Positions 3-5,884 of a DNA stretch of 5,970 nucleotides are shown here, in pieces. Both the position numbers and the translations under genes were made by a program. Position 1 is the stretch's first letter. Each line of letters starts with the position of its first letter. A model generated the notes under the pieces. The model was not told the origin of the DNA. It did not search any database and worked only from the letters and a program-made list of their open reading frames with translations. The stretch is from assembly GCA_025774805.1 (NCBI GenBank), contig JALGZR010000161.1, positions 1 to 5,970 on the forward strand. Direction: 5' to 3'. The stretch is from a bacterium (lineage in GTDB: Bacteria; ARS69).

Positions 3-233
3 GTGACCCACCGCGACGACCTAACGGCGGCCCACGCGCGGATCGCGGCGCTCGAGCTGGAAGTCGCGGACCTGCGGGAGAACTCTCTCGACCGTACGGT
101 GAAAGAGGCATTGGCGGCGAAGGGATCGATTATCACCCGAAACTCCGACTCGCGAGTGATCGCGGTCGTCGTTCCGATCGAGTTAGCAGAAAGGCTCGGA
201 CTGAGAATCGTACAGAGTGAGGAAGGCGAATGA
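3..233 (+). CDS. Small coiled-coil hypothetical protein, 76 aa
   Basis: I do not recognise this protein. It begins with GTG at the very edge of the window, so the true start may lie upstream. The first three bases read GAG and are followed by TGA, which allows an upstream gene to end in a GTGA overlap here, but one codon cannot prove that. Residues 8-40 are rich in Ala, Leu, Glu and Arg with heptad-like spacing (AARIAALELEVADLR-like helix) and probably form a coiled coil. Residues 42-70 look like a compact beta/helix unit ending in PIELAERLGLRI, which resembles small DNA-binding or regulator tails without a diagnostic motif. It ends 31 bases before the next gene on the same strand, so the two probably share a transcript. 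Function unknown; coding status is supported by strong third-position GC and co-orientation. Confidence 0.6.
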   Translation: MTHRDDLTAAHARIAALELEVADLRENSLDRTVKEALAAKGSIITRNSDSRVIAVVVPIELAERLGLRIVQSEEGE

Positions 234-264: not shown

Positions 265-879
265 ATGAGCGAAGAGAGGGATCCCATGGATCCTACGACG
301 GAGAAGAAGCAACCCACGTTCGAGGAGCGGATCGACGATCTGACCCTGAAGGTCGACCGGCAGCGCCAGCTCCTCGACCGCACCGAGAACCAGATCCGGA
401 TGCTGGACGCGGCCCTTGGCAAGACGATGGGCATGCTCCAGGGCACGGCGAAGATGGCGTCGATCGTGCTGGATTTCCTCGACTGGAAGTTCGGCGAGCG
501 GTGGGATCGTGGGGCCCGGAAGGAGTACACCCGTCGGGTGGAGCTAGGGAACAAACGTCTGGAGCTACTGGACAAGGCCCGCAAGGCCTACGACCTGGAC
601 GAGCAGGAGAAAACCGACGTGGTCAGGGAGCTACACGAGTTGGCCCGGGAGCTGGGCACCATGATTATGGACGTCCGCGAGGTTGTGCTGCTGTACACCA
701 ACACCGGTGACGTCATGGCCGCCGTCGACTACCTCGAGGAGGTGCGGTCACAGGGGGTACCCCCGGAGATCGAGTCGCTGGTCGAGCAGCTCCTCTACCG
801 TTGCCAGGACCTCGCGGAGAAGGCGGGGGACGAGTCACTCAAGGCGCGGGCGGCGGCGCTGATGAAACCGGGGAACTGA
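265..879 (+). CDS. All-helical hypothetical protein, 204 aa
   Basis: Unrecognised protein. The start is set by GGGAGG five bases before ATG 265; a later in-frame ATG at 286 has no comparable site. It is predicted soluble: no signal peptide or membrane segment is visible. Residues about 18-60 (FEERIDDLTLKVDRQRQLLD and onward) read as an amphipathic, coiled-coil-like helix. A less charged middle part contains a Trp/Phe-rich patch (IVLDFLDWKFGERWD, residues about 67-81). Residues 85-200 are charged helices, with DVMAAVDYLEEV near 150. The overall impression is an alpha-helical oligomerising or structural/accessory protein. It follows the 76-residue coiled-coil gene at short distance, and both may contribute to one complex. 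Directly downstream is a decayed nuclease remnant rather than another intact gene. No function can be assigned from sequence alone. Confidence 0.75.
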   Translation: MSEERDPMDPTTEKKQPTFEERIDDLTLKVDRQRQLLDRTENQIRMLDAALGKTMGMLQGTAKMASIVLDFLDWKFGERWDRGARKEYTRRVELGNKRLELLDKARKAYDLDEQEKTDVVRELHELARELGTMIMDVREVVLLYTNTGDVMAAVDYLEEVRSQGVPPEIESLVEQLLYRCQDLAEKAGDESLKARAAALMKPGN

Positions 880-1134: not shown

Positions 1135-1935
1135 ATGAATGAATTCGAGACTGAGACCGACCTCTGTCGGGCGTTCCTCGACGGGCTCCCACCGGACTGG
1201 ACGGCCTACCCGGAGACCGCAGGTTGGGACGTCCTGCTCGTTCGAAACGGCGTCCAGGTGGGGATCCAGGCGAAACTTCGGGCGAACCAGGAGGTCCTGC
1301 TCCAGGCGCTCCCCACGCTGAGAATCTGGAGGGAGCGCCAGAGAATCAGTGGACCGCGCTACCGGGGGATCCTCGTGGAGCGGACCACCGGTAGGACAGA
1401 GGAATCTAGAAGGACCAACCTCCACCGATTCGCGGCGATCGCCCGGCACCTCCGACTGCTCGTTCTCAGACCACCGACCGAGAGTCACCTCCCCTTCCCC
1501 GACGATTGGTTGGGGAGAGCCGAACCGAACGGGCTCAACCGTCGCATGAGCTACCAGCTCGTCCGGCGCGCGCGACCGACATCGATCGACTGGCGGTGGT
1601 ATCGATGGAATCCAAGTAGACCAGAGGATCTCCCACCGGTCGTCCCGAGGGTCCCCGCGGGCGTCCCAAGTCCGGAGGTCGTCAGCCTATGGAGCGTCGC
1701 GGCCGTCCGCCTGGAGCTGCTCTGCCGGGAGCGAGGGTTCGTTACGGCCCGGGACGCCAGGGAAATCCGAGACGACCTCGGGGCGAAGTGGAACCCCTCG
1801 ACCCTCTTGAAGCGGTTCTTCGAGCACCGGCCACCCCCGAGGGGAAGGTGGGTGCTTCACTCCCGGTGGCTACCCCCGAGTAGGCGCCACCCGGGGACGG
1901 CCGTCTCCCTCGGGATTACTGAGAAACTCGAGTAG
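1135..1935 (+). CDS. PD-(D/E)XK-like nuclease family protein, 266 aa
   Basis: Probable nuclease-fold protein. Residues 25-58 carry the pattern YPETAGWDVLLV then GVQVGIQAKLRANQEV: D32 in the GWD strand, a hydrophobic strand, and Q45-x-K47 in the next strand followed by a helix with Q57. This is the arrangement of the PD-(D/E)XK superfamily, with Gln in place of the usual Glu of the E-x-K pair, a change seen in some members. A compatible acidic residue, E27, precedes it. Residues about 183-245 (VVSLWSVAAVRLELLCRERG, then TARDAREIRDD and LLKRFF) look like a winged-helix-type DNA-binding region. The ATG follows GGGGGA at a six-base gap. The gene lies 18 bases after a GIY-YIG remnant, so two nuclease types sit side by side. 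Its target (foreign DNA, own replication intermediates or RNA) cannot be read from sequence. The fold call is inferred from motif spacing. Confidence 0.65.
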   Translation: MNEFETETDLCRAFLDGLPPDWTAYPETAGWDVLLVRNGVQVGIQAKLRANQEVLLQALPTLRIWRERQRISGPRYRGILVERTTGRTEESRRTNLHRFAAIARHLRLLVLRPPTESHLPFPDDWLGRAEPNGLNRRMSYQLVRRARPTSIDWRWYRWNPSRPEDLPPVVPRVPAGVPSPEVVSLWSVAAVRLELLCRERGFVTARDAREIRDDLGAKWNPSTLLKRFFEHRPPPRGRWVLHSRWLPPSRRHPGTAVSLGITEKLE

Positions 1936-1987
1936 GCCCCGTACGGGGAGAGCTCATCCCGGATCAACCTGCCTCCGGAGCGGGGAA

Positions 1988-2036
1988 CCGAAGTGGCTCC
2001 CCTGGAGGTCGAGTGCCACCCGTGGAGCCACTTCGG
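1988..2036. repeat. 13-bp perfect inverted repeat
   Basis: CCGAAGTGGCTCC at 1988-2000 is exactly complementary to GGAGCCACTTCGG at 2024-2036, leaving a 23-base loop. It lies about 50 bases after the stop of the nuclease-like gene. No T-run follows, so it is not a standard intrinsic terminator. It could be an RNA-stabilising 3' structure, part of an origin, or a protein-binding site. Confidence 0.75.
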
Positions 2037-2055
2037 GGGAGAATCGTCGCCGGGG

Positions 2056-2095
2056 GAGGGGAAGTGGAAGACGGGACGGTCTTCCTTTTCCTCCC
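2056..2095 (+). terminator. Long hairpin with internal T-tract, possible terminator
   Basis: GGAAGA at 2066-2071 pairs with TCTTCC at 2080-2085 around an 8-base loop. After one T-T mismatch the stem continues as 2058-2064 with 2087-2093, including two G-T wobbles, giving a stem of about 13 pairs. TTTT at 2086-2089 follows the inner stem, so the inner part alone resembles a weak intrinsic terminator for the + strand genes ending at 1935. The purine-rich left arm and pyrimidine-rich right arm make chance less likely, but termination is inferred. Confidence 0.4.
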
Positions 2096-2101
2096 ACGAA
2101 C

Positions 2102-2180
2102 TGCACCAAAATGGTGCAGTCTCCGAGCGGTTGCACCAAAATGGTGCAGTCTCCCATGGCAACTGATCCATTTTGGTGCA
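2102..2180. promoter_or_regulatory. Three phased 17-bp palindromes, NtrC-like
   Basis: TGCACCAAAATGGTGCA occurs identically at 2102-2118 and 2132-2148. TGATCCATTTTGGTGCA at 2164-2180 matches the inverse of the same site at 15 of 17 positions. Centres at 2110, 2140 and 2172 are 30 and 32 bases apart, about three helical turns, so all three face the same side of the helix. The first two copies share a 23-base identity that continues into CTCC. The form TGCACC-N5-GGTGCA is the known enterobacterial NtrC site, and glnA has paired sites at similar spacing. No sigma54 promoter or nitrogen gene is visible here. Binding by a dimeric repressor or a replication initiator (iterons) is equally possible. 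Confidence 0.7.
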
Positions 2181-2199
2181 GTCGGAGATCAGGGATGCT

Positions 2200-2211
2200 G
2201 GGCGGCCGCCC
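2200..2211. repeat. 12-bp perfect palindrome
   Basis: GGGCGGCCGCCC is fully self-complementary with no loop. It lies 20 bases after the last of the three 17-bp palindromes. In a GC-rich background it may be chance; it is listed because it adds to the density of dyad symmetry here. Confidence 0.5.
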
Positions 2212-2283
2212 TCCCCTGCCGAGGCGACTCGTTTGGGATTCGGCCTCTCGATCCTCCACTGTCGGTGGACGCCGAGGGCCTCG

Positions 2284-2317
2284 CCGGGGTCACTTCTCGA
2301 CCCGTGTGGGACCCCGG
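2284..2317. repeat. 8-bp inverted repeat CCGGGGTC / GACCCCGG
   Basis: CCGGGGTC at 2284-2291 is complementary to GACCCCGG at 2310-2317 with an 18-base loop. The right arm is reused as a direct repeat at 2378 (GACCCCGGG), so the arms recur beyond this one hairpin. Function unknown. Confidence 0.45.
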
Positions 2318-2350
2318 GTGCAGACTGTGGGAACCGTTGCACTATTTCTA

Positions 2351-2371
2351 CCTATGCAAGAGCTGCATAGG
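2351..2371. repeat. 8-bp hairpin CCTATGCA / TGCATAGG
   Basis: CCTATGCA at 2351-2358 and TGCATAGG at 2364-2371 form a perfect 8-bp stem with a 5-base loop AGAGC. It is more AT-rich than its surroundings, follows a small AT-rich patch (ACTATTTCTA, 2341-2350), and is continued by the short dyad GTCA-AC-TGAC at 2371-2380. It could be an operator or an origin hairpin. Confidence 0.55.
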
Positions 2372-2474
2372 TCAACTGACCCCGGGGGTGCGGCCGGATC
2401 TGTGGGGGGACGCCGGGGTATAGGCACGGGGACCCACCTCTCAGGTGCGGCCGCGGTTTTCCCGGAGTTCGTTT

Positions 2475-2490
2475 CTTACTTTGGAGTAAG
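2475..2490. repeat. 6-bp hairpin and TCTTA-N8-TAAG motif
   Basis: CTTACT-TTGG-AGTAAG is a perfect 6-bp stem with a 4-base loop. It also contains TCTTA-N8-TAAG (2474-2490), the same spaced inverted repeat found in both + strand promoters at 4596 and 5473. It begins 16 bases beyond the minus-strand stop at 2506, so it could be a 3' hairpin for that block. No T-run follows on the minus strand. Confidence 0.35.
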
Positions 2491-2505
2491 GAGAGGTGGA
2501 AAAGA

Positions 2506-2697
2506 TCAGTCCGTCTCCGGCTCCGGACGGAGGAGTAGCCCCGTGAGCGGGGCGGAGACGACGTCGCCGCCGGGGTGGCACTCCTCGTGGGCAGTCCCGA
2601 GGAGTACCCCGGGGACGTCGGTCGTCCCCCGGAGGGGTCGGAACTTACTCGCCCTCCGCTGCCCCGGGAGGAACGCCCGGTCGCAGACGAAGCAGCG
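2506..2697 (-). CDS. Zinc-binding-like frame without a start codon, 63 codons
   Basis: Directly after the TAA stop of the 81-residue gene, and in the same frame, the minus strand stays open for 63 codons to TGA at 2508-2506. Its third positions are almost all G or C. The translation begins RCFVCDRAFLPGQ and later contains TAHEECHPGGDV. One CxxC pair followed by an H-x-x-C unit is the layout of small zinc-binding proteins. There is no ATG, GTG or TTG near its beginning. GGGAGG sits five bases before its first codon (CGC), where a start codon would be expected. Options: the C-terminal half of a fused protein cut by a nonsense mutation (TAC/TAT to TAA), stop readthrough, a rare start codon, or a sequence error. 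Coding constraint is inferred from codon use and the Cys/His pattern; no family is assigned. Confidence 0.5.
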   Translation of the reverse strand, partial: RCFVCDRAFLPGQRRASKFRPLRGTTDVPGVLLGTAHEECHPGGDVVSAPLTGLLLRPEPETD

Positions 2698-2943
2698 TTA
2701 TTCCTCCCGGTGCTCTAGATCCGGGACCGAGTGCGGCCTGTTGTGGATCACGATCTCGTCGCTCTCCGATGTCTCGACCTTCAGGTCTATCCTGCCGTCC
2801 TCGAGGAACGTGTAGTCCGCGCCCGGTCTGAGTGCCTTTCCGTTCAGGTGCACGTAGACGTAGGAATTCTCCCTGGTGACCCCGCGCAGGGTTGGAACTA
2901 TCGCGTCGGCTCTCCAGTAGCTCTCCGGGTCGATCTTCCTCAT
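2698..2943 (-). CDS. Small protein with phage-tail-like NG...PGxDYT motif, 81 aa
   Basis: The start is well supported: GGAGG lies seven bases before ATG 2943. Residues 29-66 read VYVHLNGKALRPGADYTF, then a short acidic turn, IDLKVE and SDEIVI. This V-x-LNG-x-x-L-x-PG-x-DYT-x(n)-DEI pattern of short beta strands is common in tail-fibre and other virion proteins of phages, where it forms small beta repeats. Here only one unit is present, with an N-terminal helix-like lead (residues 1-28). The protein is too short to be a tail fibre by itself. It ends in TAA with an open frame behind it (see 2506-2697), so the full product may originally have been about 145 residues. It is in line with the minus-strand coiled-coil genes upstream but has its own leader. 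The motif is seen; a structural phage role is inferred. Confidence 0.7.
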   Translation of the reverse strand: MRKIDPESYWRADAIVPTLRGVTRENSYVYVHLNGKALRPGADYTFLEDGRIDLKVETSESDEIVIHNRPHSVPDLEHREE

Positions 2944-3239: not shown

Positions 3240-4478
3240 CTACTCCGGGATACCCCGACTGCCCTGCTTCACGATCGCGACCAACTGGACCCGCTTCCCT
3301 CCCTCCGATGCCGACTCGAACGCCGCGTCGGCGTCCCCGCGCGCGTCGAAGTAGGTTACGTCCGGGCGTTCCACTGCCCCCTCCCTCAGGTGGTACCGGA
3401 TCACCGCCCACTTCCGGACTCCGCCGAGGTCGTTCGCCCGCTCCAGCGCCCTCCGGAGCTCGCCGTCGTCCCGCTCGCCCGCCGGTTTCAGGTCGCACTG
3501 GATCAGGAAGTCGATCGTACACCTCGCCAGGTCCGCGTGCATGTCCCGCTCGGCCTCCAGCTCCACGATCCTTCGGGCGTCCCCGTCGCGGATCCCGCGG
3601 GCGGCGTGCACCTCGTCCCCCGCGTCCTTCGCCGCCTCCCTGGCGGTCTCGAGCTCCTTCTCCGCCTTTGCCAGCCTCCGCCGGAGGTCGTCCGCCAGCT
3701 TGTCCAGAGTCTCGCACCTCCCCTCCAGTCGCCGGTTCTCGGCCGCCGCCATCCCCAGCGACCGCTCGAGGTCCGCGATCCGCTCGCTCGGTCCTGTCGG
3801 CTTAGTCTCGAGATCGTCGAGGCGTCTCCGGAGATCGAGGATCTGGATGCTCTCCTCGTCCGCATGCGCCGTTCTGGCGACGTTTAGCTCCTCGGTATCC
3901 TCGACGAGCTGCGCGGTCTTCCAGATGAGCCGCGTGATTGCGCGGTCGTGCTCCTCGAGAGTCCGCCGCGTCTCCTCGAGCGTAATCGGGACCTCCGGCT
4001 CCGGGAACTCCCCGTCTGGGAACGACCGCGCATCCCCCGGGGTCCAGTCCCGCGTGTCCACCTCGCCGCCGCTCGGAAGGGTTACCCTCGTTTCGGCCGC
4101 GACGCGGCGCCCCCGACCCGCGTCGTCCAGGTGGTCCTCGAGCCCGGCGACCCGGATCTCGAGTCGCTCGAGTCGCTCGACCCGCTCGAGGAGGTCTCGT
4201 GTCGTCCTCCCGAGCGTCTCGACATGCGTCGTCAGCTCGAGGTTCGACATCAGGTTACCGCGCGTCTCGTCGCTCAACGAGGGGAGCTCGTCGCCCTCCC
4301 CGGTTCCGATCGCGTTCCGTGCCTCGTCGTCAATTGTGACCTCCTGACGATCTTTATCCGCGATGAGTTTTAACCGATCGACCGTTGAAACCACCGAGCT
4401 TTTCGTCGCCCGGCTTATCTCAGCGGCGTCAACCGCTTCCCGCGGAACCCCAGAGGCCTCCGGCGCATGGAAACCCAC
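3240..4478 (-). CDS. Coiled-coil protein with possible N-terminal winged helix, 412 aa
   Basis: The first codon is GTG at 4478, preceded by GAGGAG with an eight-base gap. Residues 14-57 (EAVDAAEISRATKSSVVSTV, DRLKLIADKDRQEVTI, DDEARNAI) look like a helix-turn-helix followed by a short wing. Residues 82-118 form a Leu/Arg/Glu coiled coil (LERVERLERLE), 125-165 a Pro/Gly-rich linker, and 166-315 a long coiled coil with repeated LxDLxxRL and LEAE segments. Residues 353-405 (VRKWAVIRYHLREG to RVQLVAIV) suggest a small alpha/beta end domain. The plan of DNA-binding head plus long helical tail resembles KfrA-type plasmid proteins, but the end domain does not, and phage scaffold or tail proteins are also long coiled coils. 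It leads an operon with the 79-residue gene and is divergent from the 4621 gene. Coding status is firm; the role is inferred. Confidence 0.75.
   Translation of the reverse strand: MGFHAPEASGVPREAVDAAEISRATKSSVVSTVDRLKLIADKDRQEVTIDDEARNAIGTGEGDELPSLSDETRGNLMSNLELTTHVETLGRTTRDLLERVERLERLEIRVAGLEDHLDDAGRGRRVAAETRVTLPSGGEVDTRDWTPGDARSFPDGEFPEPEVPITLEETRRTLEEHDRAITRLIWKTAQLVEDTEELNVARTAHADEESIQILDLRRRLDDLETKPTGPSERIADLERSLGMAAAENRRLEGRCETLDKLADDLRRRLAKAEKELETAREAAKDAGDEVHAARGIRDGDARRIVELEAERDMHADLARCTIDFLIQCDLKPAGERDDGELRRALERANDLGGVRKWAVIRYHLREGAVERPDVTYFDARGDADAAFESASEGGKRVQLVAIVKQGSRGIPE
4163..4189. repeat. 9-bp tandem repeat inside coiled-coil gene
   Basis: GTCGCTCGA occurs twice in tandem (4163-4171, 4172-4180), followed by the variant CCCGCTCGA (4181-4189). 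On the coding minus strand it encodes the repeated ERVERLERLE stretch at residues about 98-107. It is most simply a slippage-derived expansion within a coiled coil. Confidence 0.6.
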
Positions 4479-4548: not shown

Positions 4549-4586
4549 CGGTCGAATTTTTTTACGAGAAAGTGACCGCGGAGGGG

Positions 4587-4614
4587 TGGACATATTCTTA
4601 TCCTGTGTTAAGAT
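4587..4614 (+). promoter_or_regulatory. Twin promoter copy 1: TGGACA-N16-TAAGAT
   Basis: A -35-like TGGACA (4587-4592), a 16-base spacer ending in TGT, and TAAGAT (4609-4614) form an extended -10 promoter (TGTTAAGAT). Transcription should start near 4621, exactly at an ATG. The same sequence recurs before 5498 at identical distance. TCTTA-N8-TAAGA within it is an inverted repeat that may be an operator. An archaeal reading (TATA-like CATATTCTTA 21-30 bases before a leaderless ATG) is possible but the box is poor. A T-tract lies at 4557-4563. Confidence 0.68.
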
Positions 4615-4620
4615 ATTATT

Positions 4621-4932
4621 ATGACGACGACGGGAACCAAGGAGAAGCCGATGACGAAGCAGACCGAGATCGAGTCCTTCCGCATGTTCGAGGTCGGGGT
4701 CGCGGACACGGTTCGGGCGCTGGGACACGAGGCGGTCGTGGTCCGGATCTTCGACGCGCACGTTTCCGGGCGCGTCCCGGTCCTCGCGGTCCGGGTCGAC
4801 ACCGGCGCCGAGATGATCCCGTTCGCCGACGAGTGCGAGGTCGTCCGGAAGCACGTCGGCGTCTATCGCCCCCGCCGGATCTCCGATGACACCGCCGAGC
4901 GGTTCGCGCGGTTCGCGGGGGTGTCCCGATGA
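4621..4932 (+). CDS. Hypothetical protein, 103 aa (or 93 aa from ATG 4651)
   Basis: Unrecognised small protein; no signal peptide or membrane segment. Two starts compete: ATG 4621 at the predicted transcript start (leaderless) and ATG 4651, in frame, behind AAGGAG with a six-base gap. The second has classic bacterial support; the first is matched by the same geometry in the gene at 5498. Residues 17-100 alternate strands and helices: a beta stretch FRMFEVGVADTV, then VVVRIFDAHVSGRVPVLAVR, then a helix-rich end with DDTAERFARFAG. The middle looks like a small beta-barrel-like or beta-hairpin domain. It overlaps the next gene by four bases (ATGA), so the two are translationally coupled and probably work together. 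Function unknown. Confidence 0.75.
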   Translation: MTTTGTKEKPMTKQTEIESFRMFEVGVADTVRALGHEAVVVRIFDAHVSGRVPVLAVRVDTGAEMIPFADECEVVRKHVGVYRPRRISDDTAERFARFAGVSR

Positions 4933-5450: not shown

Positions 5451-5463
5451 CGGTCCCGAGGTC

Positions 5464-5491
5464 TGGACATATTCTTACTCTGTGTTAAGAT
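5464..5491 (+). promoter_or_regulatory. Twin promoter copy 2: TGGACA-N16-TAAGAT
   Basis: TGGACA (5464-5469), a 16-base spacer and TAAGAT (5486-5491) repeat copy 1 with only two differences between -35 and -10 (TC against AC in the spacer). The ATG at 5498 is again 34 bases from the first base of the -35. The TCTTA-N8-TAAGA inverted repeat is kept. The conserved spacer suggests that more than polymerase recognises it. Confidence 0.68.
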
Positions 5492-5497
5492 ATAAAC

Positions 5498-5884
5498 ATG
5501 ACGACGCGGAACGAAACCCAAGCCCAGACCGAGGAGGCCCAGATGGTCATCTCCGACGCCACCTTCAAGTCCGTCGCCGCCGCGCTCTGCCCCTGGGGCG
5601 CCGGCTACGAGTTGACCCGGGCCGCCCTCGGCGACCGCGGGATCGACCATTGCTGGGAGATGGCCGACGGCTACGGTCGGCTCTCTCTCGGGACCCTCCG
5701 CTCCCGTGGGCTCTCCCGGGACTGGTCTCACATCCGGGACTCCTCGGACGTGGCGCTCGCCCGGGTCGCCGGGTACCTCGAGCGCCACGGGATCCTCGCC
5801 TGCGCGACCTGCGCCGGCTCCGGCTCGGTCCGCCCCCACCCGACGGCGCTCGTCTGGGTCGACTGCCCGGACTGCGGGCGATGA
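5498..5884 (+). CDS. Zinc-ribbon protein, 128 aa (or 113 aa from ATG 5543)
   Basis: Small protein ending in a four-cysteine zinc-binding unit: C102-A-T-C105-A-G-S-G, then 17 residues, then C123-P-D-C126-G-R. The first half, CxxCxGxG, is the signature of DnaJ-type zinc fingers, but only one site is present and no J domain exists, so this is not DnaJ. Residues 16-100 are mostly helical with a CPWGAG turn at 31-36 and a helix VALARVAGYLERHGIL just before the ribbon. Two starts are possible: ATG 5498 at the predicted transcript start, and ATG 5543 in frame behind GAGGAGG with a five-base gap; the latter removes a Thr/Gln/Glu-rich lead. It overlaps the next gene by four bases (ATGA). A nucleic-acid- or protein-binding adaptor is plausible; no specific function. 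Confidence 0.75.
   Translation: MTTRNETQAQTEEAQMVISDATFKSVAAALCPWGAGYELTRAALGDRGIDHCWEMADGYGRLSLGTLRSRGLSRDWSHIRDSSDVALARVAGYLERHGILACATCAGSGSVRPHPTALVWVDCPDCGR

Follow-up and report, generated by a model that had tools for sequence, protein, structure and literature searches.

Three NtrC-type sites between convergent genes of a probable phage or plasmid

Introduction

What would three palindromes resembling the binding sites of NtrC do in a place where no gene lies downstream of them? The question is raised by a GC-rich DNA of 5,970 bp, hereafter the window, a term which always designates the whole stretch analysed. The source of this DNA is probably a phage or a plasmid. As far as its sequence can tell, the array formed by the three palindromes is real, non-random and of NtrC type, and it is found in an unusual place. 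The sites and their setting are described below, they are compared with the enhancer of the glnA gene of E. coli and with similar arrays detected in viral contigs and in cellular genomes, and the proteins that may bind them are then considered.

Results

Organization of the array and of its non-coding stretch

An earlier note, written from the DNA letters, had reported two exact copies of the 17-mer TGCACCAAAATGGTGCA and a third, imperfect copy. The two exact copies are indeed present on the plus strand, at positions 2102-2118 and 2132-2148. The third site (TGCACCAAAATGGATCA, 2164-2180) is inverted and matches on the minus strand at 15 of the 17 positions, with two mismatches. The centres of the sites are localized at positions 2110, 2140 and 2172, which gives the spacings of 30 and 32 bp already mentioned in the note. 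No match to the sites was obtained in 200 dinucleotide shuffles. The sites had also been called helically phased: the spacings of 30 and 32 bp, close to three turns of DNA, agree with such a phasing, but the argument is weak with only two spacings (P ~0.09 for the phasing of two random spacings).

The dyad of site 1 is symmetric except for its 3-base centre, and site 3 keeps the outer ACTG/CAGT. Beyond the NtrC box, the outer AC/GT is retained in five of the six half-sites. Sites 1 and 2 have 23 identical bases in common (TGCACCAAAATGGTGCAGTCTCC), so that a recent duplication is possible and these two sites may be recent duplicates.

The array is included in a non-coding stretch toward which the neighbouring genes read from both sides (Table 1). 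The absence of genes in this region was corroborated by six-frame codon usage, which displays no coding signal over approximately 1936-2640 when the model is built from the ORFs of the window itself. Short inverted repeats are enriched in the interval 1936-2697, where six were found versus 0.8 expected. With convergent genes, a terminator-like hairpin on one side and two hairpins on the other side, the latter possibly representing the terminator of the minus-strand operon, the stretch appears insulated; the array is located between convergent genes and not upstream of a gene, as an NtrC/sigma54 enhancer would be. None of the three sites corresponds to a hairpin followed by a T run, a combination observed only at positions 2066-2085, and an intrinsic terminator was therefore rejected as the identity of the sites.

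Table 1. Features of the array and of its surroundings in the window
Feature	Position	Strand	Description
ORF	3-233	+	Reads toward the array
ORF	265-879	+	Reads toward the array
ORF	1135-1935	+	Reads toward the array
Non-coding stretch holding the array	1936-2697		Flanked by the convergent genes 1135-1935 (+) and 2698-2943 (-)
Intrinsic-terminator-like hairpin	2066-2085	+	TTTTCC tail; ends the plus-strand genes just before the array
Site 1	2100-2120		21-bp dyad ACTGCACCA-AAA-TGGTGCAGT; the exact NtrC box occupies 2102-2118
Site 2	2132-2148		TGCACCAAAATGGTGCA, an exact NtrC box; shares its right flank CAGTCTCC with site 1
Site 3	2162-2182		ACTGATCCATTTTGGTGCAGT; inverted, with TTT as its centre; agrees with the box at 12 of 14 positions
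Two GC-rich hairpins	2580-2605, 2611-2629		Lie downstream of the minus-strand genes
ORF	2698-2943	-	Reads toward the array
ORF	3240-4478	-	Reads toward the array

Comparison with the NtrC box and the glnA enhancer of E. coli

In E. coli, the NtrC box is represented by the sequence TGCACCAnnnTGGTGCA (PMC8743547). Against this E. coli-based box the three sites of the window score 0, 0 and 2 mismatches; the match at two sites thus extends to all positions (14/14), and the consensus match claimed earlier is upheld. The glnA gene of E. coli was used as positive control for the scans of boxes and promoters. Its enhancer boxes display one and two mismatches, so that the two exact boxes of the window match better. 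The identical 17-mer was also found in an Aliidiomarina genome, where it separates glnA from an ntrB-like kinase gene that is followed by ntrC.

In the glnAp2 enhancer, two boxes are separated by 32 bp, a value shared by one of the two spacings of the window. A gene lies downstream, and a sigma54 promoter (10/12 under the scan applied to the window) is located about 80-115 bp from the boxes. Unlike glnAp2, the window contains three boxes, convergent genes and no sigma54 promoter. The absence of this promoter, first noticed by eye, was borne out by a scripted scan of the whole 5,970-bp window, where no sequence scores at least 10/12. The best score, 9/12, was obtained for TGGGACCCCGGGTGCA at position 2307 (plus strand), a value that some 20% of random 500-bp stretches also attain. 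NtrC enhancers function at a distance of 1 kb and, with lower efficiency, at 6 kb (PMC7408454), so the array could serve a promoter located outside the window.

NtrC-type arrays in viral contigs

That mobile elements carry NtrC-like arrays, as the earlier note had proposed, holds for other viruses, in which the arrays are accompanied by sigma54 promoters; the window itself follows only in part, having the boxes without the promoter. Close box pairs were detected in 42 contigs of IMG/VR. In these contigs, 32 strict sigma54 promoters are present in the 96 kb located at most 300 bp from the boxes versus 7 in the 1.28 Mb elsewhere, which represents a 61-fold enrichment (related contigs being counted separately, the independent events are fewer). 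The canonical form of these phage promoters is TGGCAC[GA]-N4-TTGC, found mostly upstream of terminase genes. Boxes, often in arrays, and canonical promoters are both present in the contigs L007, L016, L018, L036, L038, L041, L060, L081, L113, L116, L120, L178, L183 and L187. The genes adjoining the phage boxes encode terminase subunits, with the boxes upstream, in at least three lineages or terminase types.

The boxes and the enriched promoters indicate that phages carry control regions of the NtrC/sigma54 type, and this arrangement suggests that late phage genes may be under host nitrogen/sigma54 control. If true, the terminase genes of several phage lineages would be tied to the nitrogen stress of the host. 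No report of NtrC/sigma54 control in phages was found in the literature searched, the coverage of which was incomplete.

Phage arrays such as those of L018, L120 and L187 resemble that of the window by their multiple boxes and by spacings of 30, 32 and 40-43 bp; they differ from it in preceding terminase genes and in being frequently accompanied by canonical sigma54 promoters. Considering the viral arrays as a whole, helical phasing is weak (R ~0.25). The extended form of the dyad is present in 17 viral contigs, many of them with a single-copy match in a very GC-rich contig, and no array like that of the window was observed among these 17. Among the viral loci retrieved for this comparison, no relative of a window protein was detected.

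A particular organization is displayed by the phage contig L069, where nine NtrC-like palindromes follow one another nearly head to tail at distances of 15-25 bp (positions 3676-3833) and separate two oppositely oriented gene blocks.

NtrC-type arrays in cellular genomes

Among the sampled genomes, close box pairs were detected in one of 398 Pseudomonadota and in none of 297 Acidobacteriota. The single positive genome (G005) is the Enterobacterales MAG Faavne_M6_B3, in which about 15 intergenic arrays of two to four boxes were found (loci L148-L162). The boxes are nearly always the exact TGCACCAAAATGGTGCA, the spacings are of 30/31, 41 or 51 bp and the arrays display a strong helical phasing (mean cosine 0.91). 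This genome encodes a bona fide NtrC. One array is located upstream of glnA and one near ntrC, and arrays are also found next to unrelated genes. Most of these arrays have no good sigma54 promoter; box arrays devoid of a local sigma54 promoter thus exist outside the window. Concerning 39 relatives of the family of G005, no arrays were found.

G005 and the window have in common multiple boxes, the same exact 17-mer, a spacing of about 30 bp and arrays that, in G005 for the most part, lack a good sigma54 promoter. However, the arrays of G005 are chromosomal, have AT-rich flanks and occur at glnA and ntrC, and their sequence is unrelated to the window beyond the boxes.

Candidate proteins and alternative explanations

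The best explanation, to which we attribute a probability of about 0.4, is that the array serves the NtrC of the host or a protein of NtrC-like specificity, either as a decoy or as a distant enhancer. The boxes, their copy number and spacing, their location in non-coding DNA and the lack of a sigma54 promoter are observed; binding by NtrC, or by an enhancer-binding protein of the same specificity, is what we infer. The three dyads would bind a dimeric DNA-binding protein with the specificity of NtrC. The simplest candidate would be the NtrC of the host, cooperatively occupying a single face of the helix; its place could be taken by another enhancer-binding protein whose Fis-type helix-turn-helix has the same specificity. 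Since neither a sigma54 promoter nor a suitably oriented gene is within range, the array would have one of two roles: that of a sink for phosphorylated NtrC or a sensor of it, or that of an enhancer acting over a long distance on a promoter beyond the window.

This explanation is favoured by the exact boxes, better than those of E. coli glnA, and by the shared 32-bp spacing; by the presence of the same 17-mer at glnA/ntrBC of Aliidiomarina and in the phased arrays of G005; by the recurrence of the arrays in viruses, with their enriched sigma54 promoters; and by a folding signal that comes from the dyads alone, equally on both strands, as sites in DNA would give. It is weakened by the lack of a sigma54 promoter of at least 10/12, by the location between converging genes, by the conserved outer AC/GT, dispensable for NtrC (sites 1 and 2, however, resemble recent duplicates), and by the genes of the window, among which no NtrC, RpoN or nitrogen gene was recognised. 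If the host NtrC does bind, the mobile element would read or buffer the nitrogen state of the host without a local sigma54 promoter. A broader proposal, in which the array would be part of a habit of mobile elements to carry clusters of host NtrC sites, here as a promoter-less sink, sensor or long-range enhancer for nitrogen status, seems to us rather doubtful.

Nearly as likely as NtrC-type binding is the recognition of the 9-bp half-site ACTGCACCA by a dimeric repressor, a replication initiator or a partition protein encoded by the element, the likeness to the NtrC box then being a convergence. The half-site reaches beyond the NtrC box, a location between convergent genes is better suited to an origin, a centromere or a silencer than to an enhancer, the sigma54 promoter is absent, and other dyads cluster nearby, such as the 23-bp ACCTATGCA-N5-TGCATAGGT at positions 2350-2372. 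However, a check of the window for an initiator, ParB-like or helix-turn-helix gene recognised none, and the stretch has no DnaA box and only three repeats; an iteron-type replication origin, with its initiator gene and DnaA box, is thus not what was found. In addition, a random half-site of 6-7 bp would match that of a given regulator by chance in about 1 in 4,000-16,000 cases, a figure that applies to one named regulator though many could have been named.

It is improbable that the palindromes act as nucleic-acid hairpins, in a structured RNA, a cruciform or a single-stranded DNA. The stretch folds far better than its shuffles (z -5.9 and -8.2) and the pairing of sites 2 and 3 could form a long hairpin, but site 3 breaks two positions of this stem, the signal does not differ between the strands and is independent of G-U pairs, the energy does not change when the linkers surrounding the sites are shuffled (z 0.13 and 0.36), and no Rfam family matches. 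With no strand asymmetry, no contribution of the linkers and no Rfam match, a structured RNA was rejected; a signal equal between strands, not requiring G-U pairs and accounted for by the dyads favours sites acting at the DNA level. No more probable is a set of leftover duplicated palindromic repeats without current function. The 23 bases shared by sites 1 and 2 and the decay of site 3 would fit such relics, whereas the preservation of a near-perfect symmetry in two copies despite the divergence of the linkers, and a spacing near integral turns (P ~0.09), would not.

Relatives and other repeated elements of the window

According to the searches of DNA and protein sequences, hardly any relatives of the contig are known. 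No DNA relative of the window was found among phages. The single DNA match, of 89 bp, is to an Azospirillum plasmid and falls within ORF 1135-1935, which is also the sole ORF with a family match (phrog_15779, without assigned function and present in Pseudomonas phages and plasmids). Four window proteins have no relatives in IMG/VR, and three further ones gave no result by tblastn versus phages.

Two 49-bp blocks (4581-4629 and 5458-5506) are 86% identical and are each located upstream of plus-strand genes. Both contain the promoter-like hexamers TGGACA-N16-TAAGAT and the internal dyad TCTTA-N8-TAAGA, and they probably represent a shared promoter/operator of the element. This block was not found in IMG/VR. 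Another promoter-like element, TTGACC-N19-TAGAAAT, is present on the minus strand at positions 2343-2376, where the dyad ACCTATGCA-N5-TGCATAGGT fills the over-long spacer, a geometry which we take to be that of the promoters of MerR/SoxR type. This element would transcribe leftward through the array.
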